From: Planctomycetota bacterium
Lineage (GTDB): Bacteria > Planctomycetota > J058
Assembly (NCBI GenBank): GCA_020425635.1
Contig: JAGQRJ010000486.1
Span: 1-35,033 of the forward strand
Reading direction: 5' to 3'
Length of the DNA stretch: 35,033 nucleotides
The position numbers and the translations under genes were made by a program. Shown here in pieces: positions 1 to 33,050 of the stretch (the first letter of the stretch is position 1; every line of letters starts with the position of its first letter). The notes beneath the pieces were generated by a model. That model searched no databases, had not been told where the DNA came from, and was given only the letters and a program-made list of their open reading frames with translations.

Positions 1-134
1 ACGTCCCGCCCGAGCTCGAGGTCGCGGGCCGCGTAGACGATCCCCATTCCTCCGCGGCCGAGGACGCGGTGGACGACGAACTGCGGGCCGAGGCAGTCCG
101 CCTCTGGCGGGGAGAGGTCGTCAGCGGGGAGCAT
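1..134 (-). CDS. Ser/Thr protein kinase, N-terminal fragment (runs off the window)
   Basis: The reverse strand from ATG at 134 reads 44 codons to the window edge. It gives a short acidic leader (MLPADDLSPPEADCLGP), then QFVVHRVLGRGGMGIVYAARD. LGRGGMGIVY is the glycine-rich ATP-binding loop of Hanks-type bacterial Ser/Thr kinases, and the following ARD..LGRDV runs toward the expected beta-3 lysine just outside the window. Such kinases phosphorylate proteins at the membrane or in the cytoplasm; substrate and C-terminal domains cannot be seen here. The start is supported by a -10-like TAGGCT exactly six bases before the ATG and by the lack of a Shine-Dalgarno sequence, which together suggest a leaderless transcript. 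It is divergent from cstA, with a large palindrome between them. Confidence 0.85.
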   Translation of the reverse strand, partial: MLPADDLSPPEADCLGPQFVVHRVLGRGGMGIVYAARDLELGRD

Positions 135-2030: not shown

Positions 2031-2040
2031 GGCTAGACTG
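2031..2040 (+). promoter_or_regulatory. Candidate -10 region upstream of the S41 protease
   Basis: GGCTAGACTG lies 67 bases before the protease ATG. It matches the GGGCTAGRCT pattern seen before the partial kinase (minus, 141-149) and at 22862-22869, and the TAGACT upstream of the second kinase. The whole CGTGTG..GGCTAG.CTG stretch resembles 22853-22870. There is no good -35. This would give a leader of about 60 bases. Confidence 0.35.
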
Positions 2041-8892: not shown

Positions 8893-9148
8893 GGGGCAGG
8901 TCCTTCTTCCAACCACAGGGGTTGCATGGGACGCGCCAGCGGAGCGCTCGCGATAAGTCTATTCGCAGCAAAGGCGGAGTGCAGAAATGGCCCCGAATGC
9001 GGCTCTCCGCAAGGAAGTCAAGATCAGCATGAAAGAAAAGAAGGGGGCGCGGGGTGCCCGTCCGCCACGCAGGAGCCGCCCACGCCCAGCTTCGCGAGCA
9101 CACGGGCGACCAACTCGCCGAACCTCGCCGCGATCTTCCATTTAGACG
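8893..9148. other. Intergenic region between kinase and tRNA cluster
   Basis: The 321 bases between the kinase start (8892) and the first tRNA (9214) hold the kinase leader and candidate -10 (8956-8961, minus) and the tRNA/tuf promoter (9149-9176, plus). The central part, about 8970-9140, has no recognisable gene. A 38-codon frame from ATG 9029 encodes only an Arg/Pro-rich low-complexity peptide and I do not call it. Confidence 0.6.
8956..8961 (-). promoter_or_regulatory. Candidate -10 hexamer of the membrane kinase
   Basis: On the minus strand TAGACT lies about 64 bases before the GTG start, in a locally AT-richer patch (GCGAATAGACTTATCG). It is the same hexamer proposed for the S41 protease. 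No convincing -35 was found. Confidence 0.3.
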
Positions 9149-22817: not shown

Positions 22818-22852
22818 GGTGAGCGCGAGGCCCGCGGGTCTCGCGCTCGCTT
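22818..22852 (+). terminator. Strong hairpin terminating the rpoBC operon
   Basis: GAGCGCGAG (22821-22829) pairs perfectly with CTCGCGCTC (22840-22848). The stem continues inward with G-U and two C-G pairs and outward with wobble pairs, giving 12 or more bp around a CGCG loop. It is 25 bases past the rpoC stop. The following CTTCGTGTG is only weakly T-rich, so efficiency is uncertain. Confidence 0.7.
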
Positions 22853-22860
22853 CGTGTGAG

Positions 22861-22875
22861 GGCTAGGCTGGCTGC
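22861..22875 (+). promoter_or_regulatory. Candidate leaderless promoter of the membrane protein gene (TAGGCT-N6-ATG)
   Basis: GGCTAGGCT (22861-22869) is followed by six bases (GGCTGC) and ATG 22876, with no Shine-Dalgarno sequence. The ten bases GGGCTAGGCT and the N6-ATG spacing are identical to those at the partial kinase near position 140. Transcription would begin at or next to the ATG. Confidence 0.5.
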
Positions 22876-23313
22876 ATGACGGACCAGCCCTACACCCCGC
22901 CCCGTGGGGCGCTTAAGGACGCTCCCCTGAGCGCTCCGCCGCAGGTCGAGGGAGAGACCTCCAGCGGGCCCGACCGGCTCGCCGGGGGGCTCGCGCTGCT
23001 GGGGTGCCTGGGAGCCTTGTACTGCGCCGCGTTTCACTCGTGCATGTGCGGACACCTCGCCCACGATCGGGGTCCGCTGGACGTCCCGCTCGACCTCGCC
23101 GTCTTCGCGCTTCTCAGCGCTGCGATCGGGGTCCTGCTGCTCGCACGGAGCAGGCTGCGTGGGGTCGCGGCGCTCCTGCTCCTGACCCTCTTACCCGCGG
23201 AGGTCCGCTTCCTGAGCGTGCCCTTGGGCCTGATCGCGCTGATCCTGACTTGGATCTCGGCTCGGCGCGGCAAGGGACCTCCGCTGACCCTGGCCCGGCG
23301 GCAGCGCGGGTGA
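22876..23313 (+). CDS. Small membrane protein of unknown function
   Basis: The 145-residue protein has a ~30-residue Pro-rich hydrophilic N-terminus and about four membrane helices: LAGGLALLGCLGALYCAAF (~35-53), DVPLDLAVFALLSAAIGVLLL (~68-88), VAALLLLTLLPA (~95-107) and VPLGLIALILTWI (~115-127). It ends with a basic tail. A short CAAFHSCMCGHLAH segment after helix 1 has Cys and His residues that could bind metal or form a disulfide; this is only suggestive. I do not recognise the family. It overlaps the next gene by four bases (GTGA), so the two are probably translationally coupled. Confidence 0.7.
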   Translation: MTDQPYTPPRGALKDAPLSAPPQVEGETSSGPDRLAGGLALLGCLGALYCAAFHSCMCGHLAHDRGPLDVPLDLAVFALLSAAIGVLLLARSRLRGVAALLLLTLLPAEVRFLSVPLGLIALILTWISARRGKGPPLTLARRQRG

Positions 23314-23982: not shown

Positions 23983-25704
23983 GTGAACACCCCCGACGGC
24001 TACGCCGCGCTCGTCGACCCGCAGGCCACGGCCGCGGACGCGACCACCCGCAAGGTCGCCTGGGTCACGATCCCCCTCGTGCTCCTGGTGTTCCTCTTCG
24101 GCGGCGGCTTCCAAAACCTCGAGGGAGACGAGGTGCGCGTCGCCGGGATCGCCGCGGGCATGCAGGCGGGGCAGTCGTCAGTCGCGGTGCCACGCCTGGC
24201 GGGGCGCGAGTTCCTCGAGAAGCCGCCCCTCGGCTTCGCCTGCGTGGCGGCCTCCTTTCGGGTGCTCGGCACGTCGAGCTACGCCGCGCGCCTGCCGGGC
24301 CTCGTGTTCGGACTGGTCGGAGCGCTGCTCCTCGGGGTCCTCGCCTGGGACGTCTACGGATCCCGCGCGGCGGCCCTCGCCGCGGCGCTGGGCCTGCTCT
24401 TCAACGCGGAGCACTTCTGGGTCGCGCGGAAGTGCGTCGTGGACAACGCCCTGGCCGCGGGGGTGATCACGAGCGTGGTCCTGTTCTGTCGGGCCGTGGA
24501 CCGTCCGCGGCAGCGCTGGCTGTGGTTACCGCTCGCCGCCAGCGCGGTCGCGGTGGCCTGCCTCGCCAAGGGCGCGATCGGGCTCGTGCTCCCCGCGCTG
24601 GCCTTCGCCGGTGTGCTCGCCGGGCGCCGCAGCCTGGGGATCCTCAAGAGCGGGTGGTTCTGGATCTGTCCGCTGGTGGTGGCCGCCCCGCTGCTCCTCT
24701 GGCTCTACGCGGTCTACGCCGAGGGCGGCGAAGCCGCGCTGCGGATCGTGGTGGTCGACAACCACCTGCACCGCTTCTCGCCCAGCGAGGACTACCTCGG
24801 CGGACACCAGCGGCCGTTCTGGTTCTACGTCGGCAGGCTGCCGGCGGTGCTCTTGCCGGCGCTGGTGTTCCTCCCGGCCAGCCTTCGCTGGCACTGGGCG
24901 CGCCTCGAGCAGCAGCGGATCCGCGAGGTGCTCTGGTTGAGCGCGGGGTGGCTGGGCCTGGGGTTCGTGATCCTCAGCCTGGCGGGCACGAAGCGCGTGA
25001 TCTACCTGCTCCCCATCGTCGCCCCGGCGCCCCTGCTGGCGGCGGGCTGGTTGGCGAGCCTCCTCGAGCCCCGACCCCTGGACCGCCTCGAGGCCTGGAC
25101 CCTGCGCGCGCTCGTCGCGGCCGTGGTGCTCGGCGCGGTCGGGCTCCCGGTGGCGCTGGCCCTGGGCCCCGACTCCCCGCCGGTGTGGAGCGTCGCGGCC
25201 ACCGCGATCACGCTCGGCGCGGCGGGCGCGACCGCCCTCGCCTACCGCTCGGGCCCGCGCGCCGCCTTCCTCCTCGGCGCCGTGCTCAGCGGGGCGCTGA
25301 TCGTGGCGGTGGCGCTGCAGGTGGCGGGCCAGGTCGAGGAGCGGAAGAACTCGGAGCCGCGCAGCTTCTACGAGGAGGTCGCGCGACGGGTCCCTCCAGG
25401 GGCGCAGGTGCGCGTGTTCCCCGCCTCCGAGCACGGGCTGGGCGCCTTCACCTACTACACCGGGCGCGTCCCCGAGACCCTCTGGGGCACCCACGACGAG
25501 GCCATGCGGGTCAACCTCGAGCGCTGCCGCGCGGACCTGAGGGCCGCGAAGCCCCTGTTCGTCGTGGTCCTCGACAAGCAGCATCGCGCCGACGTCCCGC
25601 CCCTCTGGGAGCAGCTGCGCGAGCCGGGGGTGCACGTGCTCGCCCAGGAGACCCGAGGCCGCTGGACGAGCACCCTGCTCGCGAACCGCGCCGCTACGAA
25701 CTGA
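23983..25704 (+). CDS. ArnT-like lipid A glycosyltransferase (GT83/PMT family), first copy
   Basis: The 573-residue integral membrane protein has about twelve hydrophobic helices and a hydrophilic C-terminal periplasmic domain (~450-573). The family hallmark follows helix 1: LEGDEVRVAGIAAGM (D49-E50, the catalytic-site acidic pair) and, later, REFLEKPPLGF (E79-K80-P81). AKGAIGLVLP, SLAGTKRVIYLLPI and DYLGGHQRPFWFYV are typical of ArnT. ArnT enzymes move L-Ara4N from undecaprenyl phosphate to lipid A. Related PMT enzymes use other sugars, so the donor is not certain. GTG 23983 is chosen for AGGAG five bases upstream. It carries the shared Arn box and overlaps the histidine kinase gene tail-to-tail by 11 bases. 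Confidence 0.85.
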   Translation: MNTPDGYAALVDPQATAADATTRKVAWVTIPLVLLVFLFGGGFQNLEGDEVRVAGIAAGMQAGQSSVAVPRLAGREFLEKPPLGFACVAASFRVLGTSSYAARLPGLVFGLVGALLLGVLAWDVYGSRAAALAAALGLLFNAEHFWVARKCVVDNALAAGVITSVVLFCRAVDRPRQRWLWLPLAASAVAVACLAKGAIGLVLPALAFAGVLAGRRSLGILKSGWFWICPLVVAAPLLLWLYAVYAEGGEAALRIVVVDNHLHRFSPSEDYLGGHQRPFWFYVGRLPAVLLPALVFLPASLRWHWARLEQQRIREVLWLSAGWLGLGFVILSLAGTKRVIYLLPIVAPAPLLAAGWLASLLEPRPLDRLEAWTLRALVAAVVLGAVGLPVALALGPDSPPVWSVAATAITLGAAGATALAYRSGPRAAFLLGAVLSGALIVAVALQVAGQVEERKNSEPRSFYEEVARRVPPGAQVRVFPASEHGLGAFTYYTGRVPETLWGTHDEAMRVNLERCRADLRAAKPLFVVVLDKQHRADVPPLWEQLREPGVHVLAQETRGRWTSTLLANRAATN

Positions 25705-27103
25705 GCGGCGGAGCCGCGGAGTCCTTGAGCGCCGGGAGCGAGACGGTGAAGGTCGTGCCCGCGCCGAGGGTGCTCTCGACCGCGATCGCGCCGCGGTGTA
25801 CTTCGGCGATCCGCTTGACCAGCGCCAGCCCGAGGCCGAAGCCCCCGGCGTCGCTGCGCACGCGGAAGAAGGGCTCGAACAGCCGCTCGAGCAGCTCGGG
25901 GGAGACGCCCTCGCCGGTGTCGCGGACCACGATCTGGCAGGCGTCGTGCACGCGCTCGACCCCGACCGTGATCCGCCCCCCGGGCTGGGTGTAGTGGATC
26001 GCGTTCTCGACCAGGTTCCAGAGGAGCTGGCGCAGGAGCGGGGGATTGGCCCGCAGCTCGAGCGATTCCCAGCGGCTGCGCACGAGGGTCAGGTCCTTCT
26101 CCGAGGCGAGCACCTCGGCGTCTTCGAGGACCTCGGCGAACACGGCCGCGGGGTCGACCGCGTGCTCCGTGTCGACGCCCCCGTCGAGCCGGGCGAGGTT
26201 CAGCAGGCCCTGCACGAGCTGGGTCATGCGGTCGACCTCCGCGAGGCAGCTCTCGAGCGCCTCCTGGCTCGCGGGGGTCTCGGCCTTGGCGAGGAGCGCG
26301 TCGAGCTCGCCGCGGAGGATCGTGAGCGGCGTGCGCAGCTCGTGGGAGGCGTCGGCGGCGAAGCCGTTGAGCGCCTTGAACGCGGTCTGCATCCGGTGCA
26401 GCGCCCGATTCATGGCCGTGGCGAGCTGATCGACCTCGTCGCCCGAGCCGGGCTGGGGCAGGCGCTGATCGTGCCGCGCGGCGCTGAGGGTGTCGGCTTC
26501 ACGGACCATGCTCGCGAGCGGGCGCAGCGCGATCCCGGCCAGCCACCAGCTGAGGAAGCCGCCGAGCGCGATCGCCCCAGGCACCAGGATCAACGCCAGA
26601 CGGGTGTAGCTGGTGAGCAGCCCGTTGGCGTGCCGCCGCGACGACGCGACCACGAGGGTGCCGATCGGGCCGCCGCGCTCGGGCTGAGTCCACACCAGCC
26701 TGCGCTCCGTGGGGAGGTCGGCGTCTGCGCGCCACGCGTCGTCGTAGCGCACGCCCGAGCTCGGGGCCGGCGGCGGACGCAGGGCGGCGTCGAGGTCCGC
26801 GTTGGCCGCGAGCAGGCGACCCTGGGCGTCCCACACCGCGATCCCGACCTCGCCCTCCTCGGCGTCGACCAGCTCCTGGGCCAGCCGGGCGTCGAAGGCT
26901 CCGGAGCGCGCGCGCTGTCCGTAGGCCTCGACGAACTCCTCGGCCTCCGCGCGCAGGTGGAGGTCGAGTTCGTGGTCGAGCCAGCCTCGCAGCTGCTGCA
27001 GAAACACGGAGACCAGGGCCAAGGACAGCGCAGCGACCGCGAAGGTCCCGGCGACCCCGACCCGGCCGCGGATCGAGAGCGGCTGGGGCCACGGCGCGCT
27101 CAA
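25694..27103 (-). CDS. Sensor histidine kinase (PmrB/QseC type)
   Basis: The 469-residue inner-membrane sensor has TM1 at ~15-35, a periplasmic domain at ~36-165, TM2 at ~168-189, then HAMP (~190-245), HisKA with phospho-acceptor H254 (DASHELRTPLTILRGE), and a complete HATPase: N box NLVENAIHY (N367), RDTGEG (D395), FEPFFRV, and GFGLGLALVK. The periplasmic part is rich in Asp/Glu, with two E-x-x-E patterns (E56-E59, E82-E85); PmrB senses ferric iron through such motifs. It starts at TTG 27103 overlapping the regulator stop (TTGA), with GGAGGAG just upstream, so the two are coupled. Its position between two Arn units suggests it controls them; the signal is unknown. Confidence 0.93.
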   Translation of the reverse strand: MSAPWPQPLSIRGRVGVAGTFAVAALSLALVSVFLQQLRGWLDHELDLHLRAEAEEFVEAYGQRARSGAFDARLAQELVDAEEGEVGIAVWDAQGRLLAANADLDAALRPPPAPSSGVRYDDAWRADADLPTERRLVWTQPERGGPIGTLVVASSRRHANGLLTSYTRLALILVPGAIALGGFLSWWLAGIALRPLASMVREADTLSAARHDQRLPQPGSGDEVDQLATAMNRALHRMQTAFKALNGFAADASHELRTPLTILRGELDALLAKAETPASQEALESCLAEVDRMTQLVQGLLNLARLDGGVDTEHAVDPAAVFAEVLEDAEVLASEKDLTLVRSRWESLELRANPPLLRQLLWNLVENAIHYTQPGGRITVGVERVHDACQIVVRDTGEGVSPELLERLFEPFFRVRSDAGGFGLGLALVKRIAEVHRGAIAVESTLGAGTTFTVSLPALKDSAAPPLSS

Positions 27104-27780
27104 GGCTCCTCCTGGCCGAAGCAGTAGCCCATGCCCCGGCGGGTCAGGATCGTGCGCTCTCCGGCCGGGTCGCCGAGCTTCTTGCGGATTCGGCGCACGT
27201 GCACGTCGATCACGTTGGAGAGGATCTCCGAGCGGTAGTCCCACACGTGCTCGAGGATCATCGAGCGCGAGAGCACCACGCCGGGCCTGCGCATGAAGTA
27301 CTCCAACAGGCTGAACTCCCGCGGGGAGAGCTCGACCGGCTCCCCGGCGTGGCGCACCCGGCGGCGGGCGGGGTCGAGCTCGGTCTCCCCGACCTTGAGC
27401 ACGGCGTCGGCGCTCCCCGAGCCGCGGCGGAGCAGCGCCCGCACCCGGGCGAGGAGCTCGGCCACGGCGAAGGGCTTCACGAGGTAGTCGTCGGCCCCCG
27501 AGTCGAGCCCGCGCACGCGGTCCTCCACGCTGTCGCGCGCGGTGACGACCAGGATCGGGACGTCCCGCGTCCCGTCGGCGCGCACCCGGCGCAGGACCTC
27601 GAGCCCGGAGAGCTCGGGCAGCCCGAGGTCCACGATCAGGAGGTCGTAGGGCTCGCTCAAGGCGAGGTGCAGCCCGTCGACGCCGTCGCTGCTGCGGTCG
27701 AGGGCGTGCCCTTGCTCGCGCAGCGCGGTCGCCATGATCCGGGCCAGCTTCTCGTTGTCTTCGATCAGCAGGATTCGCAT
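27100..27780 (-). CDS. OmpR/PmrA-family response regulator
   Basis: The 226-residue regulator has a receiver domain at ~1-118, with acidic pair E7/D8, phospho-acceptor D51 (LLIVDLGLPELSG), T80 and K102 (VKPF), and a winged-helix DNA-binding domain at ~127-222 (DPARRRVRHAGEPVELSPREFSLLEYF, VWDY, NVIDVHVRRIRKKL, RGMGYCF). All phosphorylation residues are present. Its partner is the overlapping histidine kinase. It is divergent from arnB, with 165 bases between them that contain the Arn box. OmpR-type regulators bind direct repeats upstream of -35, consistent with the box position. PmrA- or PhoP-type lipid A control is the likely analogue. Confidence 0.95.
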   Translation of the reverse strand: MRILLIEDNEKLARIMATALREQGHALDRSSDGVDGLHLALSEPYDLLIVDLGLPELSGLEVLRRVRADGTRDVPILVVTARDSVEDRVRGLDSGADDYLVKPFAVAELLARVRALLRRGSGSADAVLKVGETELDPARRRVRHAGEPVELSPREFSLLEYFMRRPGVVLSRSMILEHVWDYRSEILSNVIDVHVRRIRKKLGDPAGERTILTRRGMGYCFGQEEP

Positions 27781-27861
27781 GTCCGTTCCCGCGCAGAGGA
27801 TACCTGGCGTGGCTGGCTGCTTTGAAGAAGTTTCACTCGGGCGGGCCAGGCCCCTTCGAGA

Positions 27862-27916
27862 ATGATGGTTCGTTCATTTTCGATTGGCGCGCTTGTCATG
27901 TGTCGCTGCCTACCTT
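27862..27916 (+). promoter_or_regulatory. Arn box and candidate promoter of the arnBCADT operon
   Basis: ATGATGGTTCGTTCA (27862-27876) repeats the box found at 23869-23883. TACCTT at 27911-27916 is the matching -10 candidate after 34 bases. AATGA/TCATT flank the core as an inverted repeat in this copy. Transcription from here would give a short leader of about 20-25 bases before ATG 27946, which has GAGG five bases upstream. The box also lies about 80 bases before the divergent regulator gene, so autoregulation is possible. Confidence 0.55.
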
Positions 27917-27945
27917 GTCCCCACGCCACACCGCGTGAGGAACCG

Positions 27946-29121
27946 ATGCAGACGCGAACCAAGCCGATCCCCTTCTCGAGGCCGACCATCGACGAACTCG
28001 AGATCGACGAGGTCGTCGACTCCCTGCGCTCGGGGTGGATCACCTCGGGGCCCAAGGTCGAGCGCTTCGAGGCCATGTTCCGCGAGCGGCTCGGCGTCGA
28101 GCACGCGGTCGCGGTCAACTCGGCCACCGCCGGGCTGCACCTGGCGATCGCCTGCCTCGACCTGCAGCCGGGGGACGAGGTGATCGTGCCCACGCTGACC
28201 TGGGCCTCGACCGCCAACGTCGTCGAGCTCTGCGGCGGGCGCACGGTGTTCGCCGACGTGGACCCGGGGACGCTGTGCCTCGACCCCGAAGACGCGCGCC
28301 GGCGGATCACGCCGCGCACCCGCGCGATCGTGCCCGTGCACTACGCCGGACAGCCCGCGGACCTCGACCCCCTGCGCGCCATGGCGCAGGAGCACGGCCT
28401 CGCCCTGATCGAAGACGCGGCCCACGCGCTGGGGACCTTCTACCGGGGCGAAGAGGTCGGCGCGAGCGGCGGCGTGACCGTCTACAGCTTCCACCCGATC
28501 AAGAACATCACCACCGGCGAAGGCGGCATGATCGTCCTCGACGACGAGGCCCTGGCCGAGCGCCTGCGCCTGCTGCGCTTCCACGGCGTCTCCAAGAACG
28601 CCTGGAAGCGCTACAGCGGCGGCGGGCGACCGCGCTACGAGGTGGTCGAGCCCGGCTACAAGTACAACATGCTCGACCTCCAGGCCGCCCTGGGGATCCA
28701 GCAGCTCAAGAAGCTCGAGGCCTTCAACGCCCGCCGCGCCGAGCTCGCCGAGCGCTACGGGCGCTTGCTGGCCGAGGTCCCCGAGATCACGCCCCTGGCC
28801 AGGGTCGACTACCCCGCGGTCCACTGCTGGCACCTCTACATCGTGCGCCTCGACCTGAGCGCGGTGACCCTCGACCGCGACGACTTCATGCAGGCCCTCG
28901 GCGAGGAGCAGGTCGGGACCGGGCTGCACTTCCCCCCGCTGCACACCCAGTCGTTCTTCCGCGAGAAATACGGCTACCGCGAGGGCTCGTTGCCCCACGC
29001 CGAGCAGGCCGGCGAGGAGATCTTCTCGCTCCCGCTCTACCCCCTGTTGACCGACGAAGACCAGGACGACGTCGTGAGCGCGATCAAGAAGGTCGTGGCG
29101 GCGCACCGGAGCGCACCGTGA
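27946..29121 (+). CDS. arnB: UDP-4-amino-4-deoxy-L-arabinose aminotransferase ArnB
   Basis: The 391-residue PLP enzyme of the DegT/DnrJ/EryC1 family converts UDP-Ara4O to UDP-L-Ara4N with glutamate. Typical ArnB features are IPFSRPTIDELEIDEV at the start, SGWITSGPKVERFE, NSATAGLHLA, IEDAAHALGT (PLP-binding Asp157), and SFHPIKNITTGEGGM with Schiff-base lysine K186. GYKYNMLDLQAALG and the C-terminal TGLHFPPLHTQSFF also fit. E. coli ArnB is about 380 residues. ATG 27946 is preferred over in-frame ATG 27862, which lies inside the regulatory box and lacks a ribosome site. It overlaps arnC by four bases (GTGA). Neighbouring arnC, arnA, arnD and arnT make the assignment firm. Confidence 0.94.
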   Translation: MQTRTKPIPFSRPTIDELEIDEVVDSLRSGWITSGPKVERFEAMFRERLGVEHAVAVNSATAGLHLAIACLDLQPGDEVIVPTLTWASTANVVELCGGRTVFADVDPGTLCLDPEDARRRITPRTRAIVPVHYAGQPADLDPLRAMAQEHGLALIEDAAHALGTFYRGEEVGASGGVTVYSFHPIKNITTGEGGMIVLDDEALAERLRLLRFHGVSKNAWKRYSGGGRPRYEVVEPGYKYNMLDLQAALGIQQLKKLEAFNARRAELAERYGRLLAEVPEITPLARVDYPAVHCWHLYIVRLDLSAVTLDRDDFMQALGEEQVGTGLHFPPLHTQSFFREKYGYREGSLPHAEQAGEEIFSLPLYPLLTDEDQDDVVSAIKKVVAAHRSAP

Positions 29122-30149
29122 GCCCGACGCCTCAGCTCTCGATCGTGATCCCCGTGCTCAACGAGGAGGCCAACCTCCCCGAGCTCTTTCGCCGGCTGTT
29201 CGGAACCCTCGAGGGGCTGGAGCTGAGCTACGAGGTCTTGATCGTCGACGACGGCTCGACCGACTCCAGCCTGGAGCTGGTCCGCGCCGAGCAGCGCACG
29301 CGCCCGCAGCTGCGCTCGCTGCCCTTCGTGCGCAACTTCGGCCAGCACGCCGCGGTCATGGCCGGCTTCGAGGGGGCCCGCGGCGAGTGGATCGTGACCC
29401 TCGACGCCGACCTGCAGAACCCGCCCGAAGAGGTCGCGAAGCTCGTCGAGGCCTTCCGCGCGGGCCACGACCTGGTGAACACCGTGCGCCAGGGCCGCGA
29501 CGACCCGCTGTTCCGCAAGCTCGCCTCCCGCGCGGTGAACTCGCTCGCGCGCCGCTGCTCGGGGATCCAGCTCAACGACTTCGGCTGCATGCTCCGCGGC
29601 TACCACCGCGACCTGATCGTGCCCATGACCCGCCGCCGGGAGTTCGGCACGTTCATCCCCGCCCTGGCCATGCTCTACGCGCGCAACCCGGTCGAGATCC
29701 CGGTCGCCCACGCCCCGCGCACCGAGGGCGACTCCAAGTATTCGCTGCTCAAGCTGTTTCGCCTGCAGCTCGACCTGGTGACCAGCTTCTCGCTCTCGCC
29801 CCTGCGCGCGCTCTTCGGCTTCGGCGTGGCCACCGCGCTCCTGGGGATCGGCTTCGGCCTCGTGCTGTTCGCGCTGCGCCTGATCTACGGTCCCGAGTGG
29901 GCCGTGGACGGGGTGTTCACCCTGTTCGCGGTGCTGTTCGTGTTCGTGGGCGCGCAGTTCTTCGCCTTCGGCCTGCTCGGCGAGTACATCGGGCGGATCT
30001 ACCAGGAGGTCCGCGAGCGCCCGCCCTTCCTCCTGGCGGAGCCCGCGGTCGAGGCTCCGGCCGAGGCGCCCGCCGCCGCTGAGGACGAAGCGCCCGCGCC
30101 GGCCGAGTCCGCGCGCGCGGAGGTCGAGCACCCGGTGGGGACCCCGTGA
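29118..30149 (+). CDS. arnC: Undecaprenyl-phosphate 4-formamido-L-arabinose transferase ArnC
   Basis: The 343-residue family-2 glycosyltransferase puts Ara4-formyl-N on undecaprenyl phosphate at the cytoplasmic face of the inner membrane. The GT-A domain shows SIVIPVLNEEANLPELF, DDGSTD (44-49) and DADLQNPPEE (D96, D98); then HRDLIVPMTRRREFGTFIP as in ArnC. Two membrane helices lie at ~231-253 and ~264-287, ending GEYIGRIYQEVRERP. A ~37-residue Ala/Pro/Glu-rich tail (307-343) extends beyond the E. coli protein (322 residues). It starts at GTG 29118 within the arnB stop and ends by GTGA overlap with the next gene. Confidence 0.94.
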   Translation: MSPTPQLSIVIPVLNEEANLPELFRRLFGTLEGLELSYEVLIVDDGSTDSSLELVRAEQRTRPQLRSLPFVRNFGQHAAVMAGFEGARGEWIVTLDADLQNPPEEVAKLVEAFRAGHDLVNTVRQGRDDPLFRKLASRAVNSLARRCSGIQLNDFGCMLRGYHRDLIVPMTRRREFGTFIPALAMLYARNPVEIPVAHAPRTEGDSKYSLLKLFRLQLDLVTSFSLSPLRALFGFGVATALLGIGFGLVLFALRLIYGPEWAVDGVFTLFAVLFVFVGAQFFAFGLLGEYIGRIYQEVRERPPFLLAEPAVEAPAEAPAAAEDEAPAPAESARAEVEHPVGTP

Positions 30150-31066
30150 GCATCGCGCTCTTCGCTTACCACGAGCTCGGGCACCAGGCCCTGCAGACCC
30201 TGCTGGCCGAGCAGGCTCCGGTCGTCGGCGTGTTCACCTACGAGGACGACCCCGACGAGAACTGCTGGTTCGGCTCGGTGAGCGAACTCGCCCGCGACGC
30301 CGGGATCCCGACCTTCACCCCCGCCGACGTGAACCAGCCCGAGTGGGTCGCGAAGCTCCGCGAGCTCGCCCCCGAGGTCCTGCTCAGCGTCCACTACCGG
30401 CACATGCTCAAGCGCCCGATTCGCCGCGTCCCGAGCCGGGGCTGCCTGAACCTGCACACCTCGCTGCTCCCCAAGTACCGCGGGCGCTGCCCGCTCAACT
30501 GGCAGCTCGTCCACGGCGAGCGCGAGTCGGGCGTGACCCTGCACGAAATGGTCGCGCGCGCCGACGCCGGCGCGATCGTCGACCAGGAGCGCGTCGCGGT
30601 GGGTCCCGAGGACACCGCCCTCGAGCTCTACCAGAAGCTGCTCCCCGCGGCGCGCGCCGTGCTCACCCGTCAGCTCCCCGCGATCCTCGCCGGCGCCTGG
30701 CCCCGGCGCGAGCAAGACGAAGCCCGGGTCACCAAGTTCGGCGGGCGCGGCCCCGAAGACGGGCGGATCGACTGGAGCGCGCCGGCGCAGCGGATCCACG
30801 ACCTCGTGCGCGCGGTCAGCCGCCCCTGGCCAGGCGCCTTCTGCGACGTGGCCCCCGGGCGGGTCATGGTGTGGCGCACCCGCGTCGCGGCCCTGCCGCC
30901 GAGCGCGGAGGCGCTGGAGCCGGGCGCGACCTGGTCCGACCCCGCGGGGCGCGCCTACGTGCGCGCGGGCGAGGGCTGCTTGGAACTTTTGGATTTCGAG
31001 CTCCCCGAGGGGCTCAGCATCGGTGACGGCCTCGCTTCGCAGGCCGCAGGAGTCTCTGCTTCGTGA
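30146..31066 (+). CDS. arnA: UDP-L-Ara4N formyltransferase (ArnA N-terminal half as a separate protein)
   Basis: The 306-residue protein matches the N-terminal domain of bifunctional ArnA, which formylates UDP-L-Ara4N using N10-formyl-THF. FAYHELGHQAL, the catalytic N102 and H104 in LNLHTSLLPKYRGR, and D140 in RADAGAIV fall at the same residue numbers as in E. coli ArnA (N102, H104, D140). The C-terminal OB-like region includes RIDWSAPAQRIHDLVRAVSRPWPGAF. In E. coli this domain is fused to the decarboxylase; here the frame stops at 31066 and the decarboxylase starts at 31063 in another frame. It is complete, not a broken gene. Confidence 0.93.
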   Translation: MSIALFAYHELGHQALQTLLAEQAPVVGVFTYEDDPDENCWFGSVSELARDAGIPTFTPADVNQPEWVAKLRELAPEVLLSVHYRHMLKRPIRRVPSRGCLNLHTSLLPKYRGRCPLNWQLVHGERESGVTLHEMVARADAGAIVDQERVAVGPEDTALELYQKLLPAARAVLTRQLPAILAGAWPRREQDEARVTKFGGRGPEDGRIDWSAPAQRIHDLVRAVSRPWPGAFCDVAPGRVMVWRTRVAALPPSAEALEPGATWSDPAGRAYVRAGEGCLELLDFELPEGLSIGDGLASQAAGVSAS

Positions 31067-32100
31067 AAGTCCTCATCCTCGGCGTCAACGGCTTCATCGG
31101 CCACTCCCTGGCCACGCGGATCCTCGCCGACACCGACTGGGAAGTCGCCGGCATGGACCTCGAGTCCGACCGCGTCCGGGGCCTGCTCGAGAACCCGCGC
31201 ATGCGCTTCCTCGAAGGCGACATCGCGATCCACCGCGAGTGGATCGAATACCACGTCAAGCGCTCGGACGTCGTGCTGCCCCTGGTCGCGATCGCGACCC
31301 CCGCGACCTACGTCACCAACCCGCTGGGGGTGTTCAAGCTCGACTTCGAGGAGAACCTGCGGATCATCCGCTACGCCACGGCCTACAACACGCGGGTCGT
31401 GTTCCCCTCGACCTCCGAGGTCTACGGGCTCTGCCCCGACCGGGCGTTCAACGAGTTCACCAGCAACCTCGTCATGGGGCCGATCGACAAGCAGCGCTGG
31501 ATCTACGCCTGCGCCAAGCAGCTCCTCGACCGGATCATTTGGGCCTCGGGCGAGCAAGAGGGCCTGCGCTTCACGCTCTTCCGCCCGTTCAACTGGATCG
31601 GCCCTGGCCTCGACGACATCGACTCCGCCAAGGAGGGCAGCAGCCGGGTCGTCACCCAGTTCCTCGGCCACCTGCTGCGCCGTGAGCCGCTGCAGCTCGT
31701 CGCCGGCGGTCATCAGCGGCGGAGCTTCACCTACATCGACGACGGGATCGAGGCGCTCATGCAGATCCTGCGCAACGAAAACGGCGTCGCCGACCGCCAG
31801 ATCTTCAACATCGGGCACCCCGGGAACGACTGCTCGATCCGCGAGCTCGCAGAGCACATGCGCGGGATCGTGGCCGAGCAGCCGGGCTACGAAGACGTCC
31901 GTCACGCGTCGCTGACCGGCGACGTGAGCGAGGCGGAGTACTACGGCGAGGGCTACCAGGACATGCCCTGCCGCGTGCCCGACGTGAGCAACGCGCGCAC
32001 CCGCCTGGGCTGGGAGCCCCAGGTCGACCTCGACACCGCGCTGCGCAAGACGATCGCGCACTACGTGGGCCGCGAAGCCGTCGCCTGCCCCACGGGCTGA
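31063..32100 (+). CDS. arnA: UDP-glucuronic acid decarboxylase (ArnA C-terminal half as a separate protein)
   Basis: This 345-residue extended SDR enzyme oxidatively decarboxylates UDP-glucuronate to UDP-Ara4O. The Rossmann motif is GVNGFIG (7-13). Active-site residues align with E. coli ArnA at constant offset: S118/E119 (S433/E434) in PSTSEVYG, Y148 and K152 (Y463, K467) in YACAKQLLDR, and R304 (R619) in CRVPDVSNA. The Arg distinguishes the ArnA decarboxylase from UDP-xylose synthases. It starts at GTG 31063, overlapping the formyltransferase stop by four bases. It is followed 29 bases later by arnD. The subunits may still associate, as the domains of E. coli ArnA form hexamers; that is inference. 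Confidence 0.93.
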   Translation: MKVLILGVNGFIGHSLATRILADTDWEVAGMDLESDRVRGLLENPRMRFLEGDIAIHREWIEYHVKRSDVVLPLVAIATPATYVTNPLGVFKLDFEENLRIIRYATAYNTRVVFPSTSEVYGLCPDRAFNEFTSNLVMGPIDKQRWIYACAKQLLDRIIWASGEQEGLRFTLFRPFNWIGPGLDDIDSAKEGSSRVVTQFLGHLLRREPLQLVAGGHQRRSFTYIDDGIEALMQILRNENGVADRQIFNIGHPGNDCSIRELAEHMRGIVAEQPGYEDVRHASLTGDVSEAEYYGEGYQDMPCRVPDVSNARTRLGWEPQVDLDTALRKTIAHYVGREAVACPTG

Positions 32101-32129
32101 GCCGGCCGGCGCAGGCAGAGGAGCCCCGA

Positions 32130-33050
32130 GTGAGCGAACGGCCGCTGTGCAGCCTGAAGGTCGACGTGGACACCCACGACGGCATGCGCGACGGTGTGCC
32201 CCGCCTGCTCGAGGCCTTCGCGCGCCACGGCGTGAAGGCCACGTTCTTCCTCTCCTTCGGGCCCGACAACGCGGGCAAGGCCGTGTGGAACCTCGTGCGC
32301 CAGCGCGGGTTCATGCGCAAAATGCTCAAGACCGGCGCGCCCAAGCTCTACGGCTGGCGCACGGTGCTCTCGGGGACCCTGCTCCCGGCGCGCCCGACCG
32401 CCGCGGCCATGCCCGAGCTGGTGCGCCGGATCGAGGCCGAGGGCCACGAGGTCGGGGTCCACGCCTGGGACCACCGGCTGTGGCAAGACCACCTGCACCG
32501 CCTCTCGCGCCCCCAGGTGGAGGAGCAGGTGCGCCTGGCCTGCGACGCCTTCGAGGGGATCCTCGGCCGGCGGCCCCAGGCCGTCGCGGCGCCGGCGTGG
32601 TACGTCTCGCGCACGAGCCTCGAGCTCCACGACGCCCTGGGGCTGCTCTACGCCAGCGACATGCGCGGCGGCGCCCCGGCCTTCCCCGAGCTCGAGGGCT
32701 ATCGCTCGACGACGCTCCAGATCCCGACCACCCAGCCCTGCCTGGAGGAGCTCCTGACCCTCGGGCAGCGTGACCCGGCGACGTGGGTCGACCTCGTGCT
32801 GCGGCCCCCCGCCGAGCCCGTCGACGCGCTCGTGCTCCCGCTGCACGCCGAGGTCGAGGGGGGCGTCTACGCCAGCTTCCTCGACGAGCTGCTCGAGCGC
32901 CTGACCGGCACCCACGACGTCGTGCCCCTCGAGGGGGTCGCGCGGCGCGCCCTCGCGCGGGACCCCGGGGTGCGGCCGGCGACCCTCGCGCCCTGCTCGG
33001 GCCGCGCGGGGCGCGTGTTCGCCTTCGAACCGGCCGGCGTCGAGGTCTGA
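32130..33050 (+). CDS. arnD: 4-deoxy-4-formamido-L-arabinose-phosphoundecaprenol deformylase ArnD
   Basis: The 306-residue NodB-homology deacetylase removes the formyl group from lipid-linked Ara4FN. The metal site is shown by KVDVDTHDG (D12, D14) and HAWDHRLWQ (H111, H115). Other ArnD blocks are GVPRLLEAFARHGVKATFFLSFGPDNAG, KLYGWRTVLSGT, ASDMRG, TLQIPTTQP and LHAEVEGGVY. It starts at GTG 32130 with AGGAG six bases upstream. The C-terminus (~265-306) runs beyond the E. coli enzyme (~296 residues) with a Pro/Arg-rich tail. The stop is two bases before arnT. Confidence 0.94.
   Translation: MSERPLCSLKVDVDTHDGMRDGVPRLLEAFARHGVKATFFLSFGPDNAGKAVWNLVRQRGFMRKMLKTGAPKLYGWRTVLSGTLLPARPTAAAMPELVRRIEAEGHEVGVHAWDHRLWQDHLHRLSRPQVEEQVRLACDAFEGILGRRPQAVAAPAWYVSRTSLELHDALGLLYASDMRGGAPAFPELEGYRSTTLQIPTTQPCLEELLTLGQRDPATWVDLVLRPPAEPVDALVLPLHAEVEGGVYASFLDELLERLTGTHDVVPLEGVARRALARDPGVRPATLAPCSGRAGRVFAFEPAGVEV

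Follow-up and report, generated by a model that had tools for sequence, protein, structure and literature searches.

A TANNNT hexamer close to start codons in a planctomycete genome as a candidate −10 box of leaderless genes

Two genes of a planctomycete contig, a partial kinase gene and a gene for a small, probably membrane-bound protein, carry the same ten bases, GGGCTAGGCT, six bases before the start codon. Could these bases hold a −10 box so close to the ATG that the transcript would begin at the start codon itself, and is the arrangement found at other genes? The window, by which we mean the whole stretch of 35,033 nucleotides that was analysed, corresponds to contig C153 in a draft genome of 7.46 Mb and 966 contigs, and the end of its rpoC gene is 77–85% identical to six contigs, five of them from Planctomycetota. 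Elsewhere in the window, at 25694–33050, a two-component pair lies beside aminotransferase, glycosyltransferase, formyltransferase, epimerase and deacetylase-like genes (labels given by eye, from translations); by the same reading, this set resembles a lipid A aminoarabinose (arn) cluster.

The two sites in the window

The features at the two sites are the following:

1–134, minus strand: 5′ portion (44 aa) of a Ser/Thr kinase gene truncated at the contig end
141–146, minus strand: candidate −10 box TAGGCT of the partial kinase gene, with the spacer AGGGGC at 140–135 and the ATG at 134–132
22821–22848, plus strand: G+C-rich hairpin after rpoC, GAGCGCGAG..CTCGCGCTC, without a clear T run
22864–22869, plus strand: candidate −10 box TAGGCT of the membrane-protein gene, within GGGCTAGGCT (22860–22869), with the spacer GGCTGC at 22870–22875 and the ATG at 22876
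22876–23313, plus strand: gene for a small protein, probably membrane-bound, 145 aa, without a Shine-Dalgarno core

The shared GGGCTAGGCT-N6-ATG arrangement, noticed in the first-pass annotation, is exact. The decamer occurs twice in the window, at 141–150 on the minus strand and 22860–22869 on the plus strand, so that the arrangement at the second gene is real but begins one base before 22861, the start given for it earlier. Shuffles of the window hold a mean of 0.03 copies, and none of 100 reached two. The degenerate form TANNNT-N6-ATG is found at just these two sites as well, against 0.58 expected; because 9 of 100 shuffles also reach two such sites, the window by itself is weak evidence. 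When the upstream sequence was read, no recognisable −35 hexamer was seen at either site.

The 44 residues of the partial kinase include GRGGMGIVYAA, a glycine-rich loop that we take to be a kinase motif and that is the sole basis of the Ser/Thr kinase label; a Pfam search with these residues returned no match. The membrane-protein gene was missed by the codon-usage gene caller, and its GC content by codon position is 0.75/0.54/0.87. Pfam gave nothing above the cut-off for its product and no useful ortholog was found in relatives, making it a near-orphan whose promoter therefore cannot be footprinted. Its transcript is predicted to begin with the ATG, give or take about one base. The hairpin between rpoC and the box of this gene is a possible terminator, with a fold z of −2.3 and 7 of 200 shuffles folding as well.

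The hexamer at gene starts

A search of the 7.46 Mb genome gave five cases of GGGCTAGGCT-N5..7-ATG and none of the reversed control. The pattern GCTAGNCT-N1..26-ATG has 50 matches, of which 16 fall at N = 6 or 7 (binomial p 6e-7). Since the same pattern reversed, as a control, has 68 matches overall, the evidence lies in the spacing and not in the total. Thirteen distinct sites at N6–7 were read (12 of the 16, and one more at N7), and every one of them opens a frame whose third-position GC is at least 0.87.

Genes were called by a codon-usage score and their starts picked by coding score alone, without the motif; frames with no stop inside the stretch were not called. An unbiased own-genome sample of 73 genes was taken from contigs at regular number steps, while a larger own-genome set of 308 genes is biased: it takes in the window, and 15 of 20 stretches come from contigs picked for a GCTAGNCT match. 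A relative, G006, contributed 211 genes. A gene was kept only if it had at least 60 bases upstream, which removed 3 of 76, 11 of 319 and 4 of 215, respectively. TANNNT stands 6–8 bases before the start in 8 of the 73 genes of the unbiased sample, against a shuffled mean of 0.59 (maximum 3), and in 18 of the 211 genes of G006, against 0.98 (maximum 6); none of 300 shuffles reached either count. The enrichment over shuffled upstream regions on which the first-pass annotation had made its reading depend is thus present at starts chosen by coding score. With starts allowed up to 60 bases from the score start, the genes bearing the motif number 33 of 308 in the own genome and 21 of 211 in G006.

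In the larger own-genome set, TAGNNT was found 16 times against 2.8 expected, and ATNNNT 0 times. A confounding effect of the upstream gene's stop codon, in which its TAG would lie at a fixed distance, is not supported, as TAGNNV is flat (2 against 2.5 expected). TAYNNT, a form that excludes stop codons, reached 11 against 0.7 expected in G006; in the unbiased own sample, TAGNNT makes up 7 of the 8 cases and TAYNNT has 0 and no peak. Motif genes seldom follow within 25 nt of the preceding gene (own genome, 2 of 26 against 76 of 229 others, p 0.006; G006, 1 of 15 against 51 of 160, p 0.04). No excess of kinases among motif genes was detected with a catalytic-loop pattern in the larger own set (2/33 against 3/275, p 0.09), the unbiased sample (1/10 against 0/63) or G006 (1/21 against 3/190, p 0.34), and the N-terminal hydrophobicity of motif genes was no different from that of others.

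When 54 motif genes were aligned on TANNNT, two further signals appeared that had not been selected for. At −23 to −21 the bases T, T and G reach 33%, 33% and 65%; a TTG there corresponds to a 17-base spacer, right for a −35 element. At −2, G reaches 65%. At least four of the six bases of TTGACA were found at spacers of 16–18 in 13 of the 54 genes (3, 6 and 4, respectively), and at any other single spacer from 8 to 33 in 0–3. Pyrimidines at −1 show only a slight excess (p 0.02 and 0.22). By these features, the hexamer in the 54-gene set behaves as would be expected of a sigma-70 promoter with a −35 element at 16–18 bp.

The lack of a Shine-Dalgarno sequence, which had also been put forward for these genes, is true of the motif genes: a core (GGAG, GAGG or AGGA) precedes 2 of 33 in the own genome against 156 of 275 others, and 1 of 21 in G006 against 87 of 190. 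This contrast is, however, mostly forced, because the hexamer occupies the place of the core. When TA...T was imposed on the other genes at N 6, 7 and 8, the core was kept in 39, 43 and 71 of the 275 own genes and in 24, 27 and 27 of the 190 in G006, and of these six comparisons one still gave a significant difference. For the unbiased own sample, 2 of 10 motif genes have a core, against 9–16 of the 63 others treated in this way. As independent proof of leaderless starts, the contrast was dropped after this control.

How widely is the spacing shared? We counted TAGNNT-N7-ATG against TAGNNT-N13-ATG, which has the same reading phase, in 58 planctomycete genomes. The seven genomes of the window's family together have 509 against 97, and the excess is significant after Bonferroni correction in 17 of the 58 genomes, including all seven of the family; it is also significant in two of three other members of the window's order. 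Genomes with very high counts show no excess (764 against 748 in G034, and 372 against 373 in G063); these two are presumably richer in A+T. Outside the family, many genomes have more matches to the reversed control, whose composition is not matched, than to the forward pattern, so the spacing control alone was used. The strict form CTAGNCT-N6-ATG was found 15 times against 5 for its reversed control in the own genome and 26 against 7 in G012, but does not beat that control in four of the other five family genomes listed (G007 6/6, G009 5/4, G010 15/29, G011 5/5; G008 has 5/4). The decamer form is thus mostly a property of this genome, whereas the general TANNNT is shared by the family.

The comparison of orthologs covered one gene only, that of thymidylate kinase, picked for its motif in G006 (identical with G011). 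This gene is present in six of seven family genomes searched, and five of the six (G008, G009, G010, G011 and G012, from three genera) have TANNNT at N6–8, as do G015 from the order and G019 from the phylum. Fifteen of 20 loci were read; the motif is present in seven and absent from six, and in two the P-loop pattern was not found. In the own genome, the sequence is TATAAC-N6-ATG at an inner ATG, with a Shine-Dalgarno-like core before the outer ATG, and in G010 the box itself contains a Shine-Dalgarno-like AGGA. At the orthologs of this single gene, the architecture of putative −10 box and start codon appears to be kept.

Taken on the spacing, the enrichment, the TTG of the −35 region and thymidylate kinase, sequence statistics support the leaderless reading of the first-pass annotation, and a TANNNT hexamer adjoining the start codon, as at both genes noticed in the window, is very probably a −10 box giving a leaderless mRNA. 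The box GCTAGGCT, or more generally TANNNT, frequently accompanied by G at −2 and by a weak TTG-type −35, would be the −10 box of a sigma-70-type promoter, placed 6–8 bases before the start codon in about 8–11% of the sampled genes of this planctomycete and one relative. The transcript would begin with the start codon, or about one base from it, and this leaderless mRNA would need no Shine-Dalgarno sequence. The promoter of the membrane-protein gene would sit behind the hairpin at the end of rpoC, and that of the kinase would have been put together where a lineage-specific REP-like palindrome ends, the CTAG at this end giving the TAG of the −10.

The alternative that survives best is that TAGGCT is an ordinary −10 box and that the true start codon lies further downstream, in which case the mRNA would be leadered and the ATG at N6 misassigned. 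Boxes of the GCTAGNCT type do also occur at least 15 bases before starts, some with Shine-Dalgarno-like cores in between, and the missing core before the ATG is not independent evidence. Against this, it is the coding-score start itself that has TANNNT at N6–8 in the 8 of 73 and 18 of 211 genes, and in most genomes that have the motif at thymidylate kinase, only a few residues separate the start from the conserved P-loop. We regard such a misassignment as improbable.

Leadered use of a similar hexamer could nonetheless occur alongside the leaderless boxes, at two places in the window:

2034–2039, plus strand: TAGACT of GGGCTAGACT, candidate leadered promoter, 67 nt before ATG 2107 of an S41-type protease gene
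8956–8961, minus strand: TAGACT, candidate leadered promoter, about 63 nt upstream of GTG 8892, the coding-score start of a membrane kinase gene

The first-pass annotation had listed these hexamers as related to the boxes at N6. They exist, at distances that are those of leadered promoters. AGAGGA precedes ATG 2107 of the protease gene (the S41-type label is that of the first-pass annotation, and the coding-score start of this gene is 2140), and AAGGA precedes GTG 8892 of the membrane kinase, which has a Pkinase match (E 1.6e-43). Both are candidates for the same kind of box in leadered use.

A dispersed palindrome at the kinase site

The kinase copy of the decamer adjoins a further feature:

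144–187, no strand assigned: REP-like palindrome, CTAG-CCCGCAAA..TTTGCGGG-GTAG, with a z of −6.9 when folded as DNA

The palindrome reads CTAGCCCGCAAA..TTTGCGGGGTAG and has a stem of 16 bp with a bulge. On the kinase side, GGGCTAG is its edge, and the CTAG end at 144–147 supplies the TAG of the candidate −10 box. The window has one palindrome core only, and none at the membrane-protein site. As the kinase decamer is a repeat edge and the membrane-gene decamer stands without a repeat, the two decamers differ in origin.

The core has 210 strand matches in its own genome, against 0 for the reversed control; the 100 matches listed of these 210 fall in 68 distinct places (hand count). None was found in six other genomes of the family, and the seven more distant genomes searched gave one stray match. 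Searches of Rfam with the palindrome from three loci returned 0 matches. In several copies (including L068, L073 and L075) the palindrome belongs to a conserved stretch that is longer, about 210 bases, and has CTAG-type ends. Contig ends lie within about 150 bases of a number of the copies listed, so the palindrome may break the assembly. No copy was found within about 1.5 kb of the one Y1 transposase gene found in the genome; with no link to a Y1 (RAYT) gene, the palindrome is therefore named REP-like only. That Y1 gene, which is IS200-like and lies on L103, is flanked by three exact copies of another GTAG-tagged palindrome, an arrangement as described for RAYT genes and their REPs:

L103, 1169–1193, 1270–1294 and 1960–1984: GTAG palindrome copies flanking the Y1 gene

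Repeat copies were drawn from the 100 matches listed of 210, and those with identical 43-base cores were merged, leaving 48 for the edge reading and tag count and 46 for the coding-frame test. L003 entered the repeat-edge and tag counts through the motif search, and L101 and L102 through a separate search. Of the 48 copies, 19 have CTAG and GTAG ends, 6 GTAG alone, 8 CTAG at both ends, 12 CTAG alone and 3 neither. With untagged edges left out (24 of 96), 72 edges were readable, of which 7 read TANNNT, no excess over chance, and 65 do not. A start codon lies 4–30 bases from each of the seven TANNNT edges (L003, from the motif search, among them) but from only 18 of the 65 others (one-sided p about 3e-4, by hand). 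It is at N6–7 in four of the seven and at N15–25, behind Shine-Dalgarno-like leaders, in three. Among edges with a flank of 250 bases or more that were put through a coding-frame filter, three of four that read TANNNT open a gene, against 1 of 52 others (p 6e-4); these are small numbers, from 56 edges, and the window kinase stands outside the count because the contig ends too soon. The fourth TANNNT edge (L160, N6) failed the filter, and the lone other edge that opens a gene is that of the window gene at about 217–1959 (CstA-like by eye).

The kinase gene probably takes part of its promoter from the edge of the palindrome. A more speculative extension, which we put forward only tentatively, is that the palindrome spreads half-built promoters, its CTAG tag becoming a −10 box wherever the next bases fit, whether leaderless or leadered, and here before a signalling kinase. 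A literature search for REP edges as −10 boxes gave nothing among the matches listed. Apart from this palindrome, a stretch with GCTAGGCT-N19-ATG is present in four near-identical copies in the own genome (C495, C684, C783 and C957), which are perhaps a further repeat family with a GCTAGGCT edge.

Could the shared ten bases then be a regulator's binding site or the end of a mobile repeat, and not a promoter box at all? That the kinase copy is the edge of a palindrome with 210 strand matches, and that 65 of 72 readable edges do not read TANNNT, would fit such a view, but the membrane-gene copy has no repeat in a window with a single core, the signal across genes is a degenerate TANNNT at a fixed distance from the start and with a −35 element, and it is also present in relatives where the palindrome was not found. 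We consider this explanation very unlikely. Least probable of all is a chance placement of two G+C-rich decamers before two ATGs in one window, which the window count would allow (0.58 sites expected, and two reached in 9 of 100 shuffles) but which the genome-wide spacing peak and enrichment contradict.

Comparison with known systems

Leaderless genes with a TANNNT signal were reported in 207 of 953 bacterial genomes (PMC3160421), with averages of 19.2% in Actinobacteria and 39.4% in Deinococcus-Thermus; in both groups, the TANNNT −10 box lies about 12 bp before the start (PMC3160421, PMC12340547). The pattern known from Deinococcus and Actinobacteria had been invoked for the two genes of the window, and the same hexamer and distance are indeed found here, although the organism is a planctomycete and belongs to neither group. 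A high-G+C genome and the restriction to a minority of genes are further likenesses, while the share of about 8–11% of sampled genes, the G at −2 and the frequent TAG are differences. The string "planctomycet" is absent from the main text of both papers; the per-phylum survey of PMC12340547 is in a supplementary figure, which may include planctomycetes. In PMC5397173, one Planctomycetes species is flagged with an upstream bias of the leaderless or ribosomal-protein-S1 kind. The phylum and the presence of non-Shine-Dalgarno genes with upstream compositional bias are common to that case and ours, but it concerns one species in which leaderless and S1 were not separated, whereas here there are a positioned hexamer, a −35 signal and one ortholog set in several genera. 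Our literature search, which was thin on subscription journals, found no study mapping leaderless transcripts in planctomycetes.

For the palindrome, the closest comparison is with the GTAG-tagged REP repeats of PMC3733652, where Planctomycetes are among the phyla listed. Both are short dispersed palindromes, and GTAG stands at one end in 25 of the 48 copies here. The stem of 16 bp with a bulge differs from the 5–13 bp given in the table of that paper, CTAG is the commoner tag here, and the palindrome is not beside the Y1 gene, which has a different GTAG palindrome.

If the transcripts were mapped accordingly, leaderless expression, of which there have so far been hints in this phylum, would become one of its regular modes. 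The result would matter for annotating the start codons of perhaps a tenth of the family's genes, and would provide another phylum for asking how bacteria translate leaderless mRNAs. At the repeat edge, the origin of new promoters from a dispersed palindrome could be tested. Leaderless starts were already known in other phyla, and one planctomycete had earlier been flagged with a leaderless or S1-type bias; judged from sequence, the arrangement in this planctomycete holds beyond the two genes, with repeat edges that may serve as −10 boxes as a side finding.
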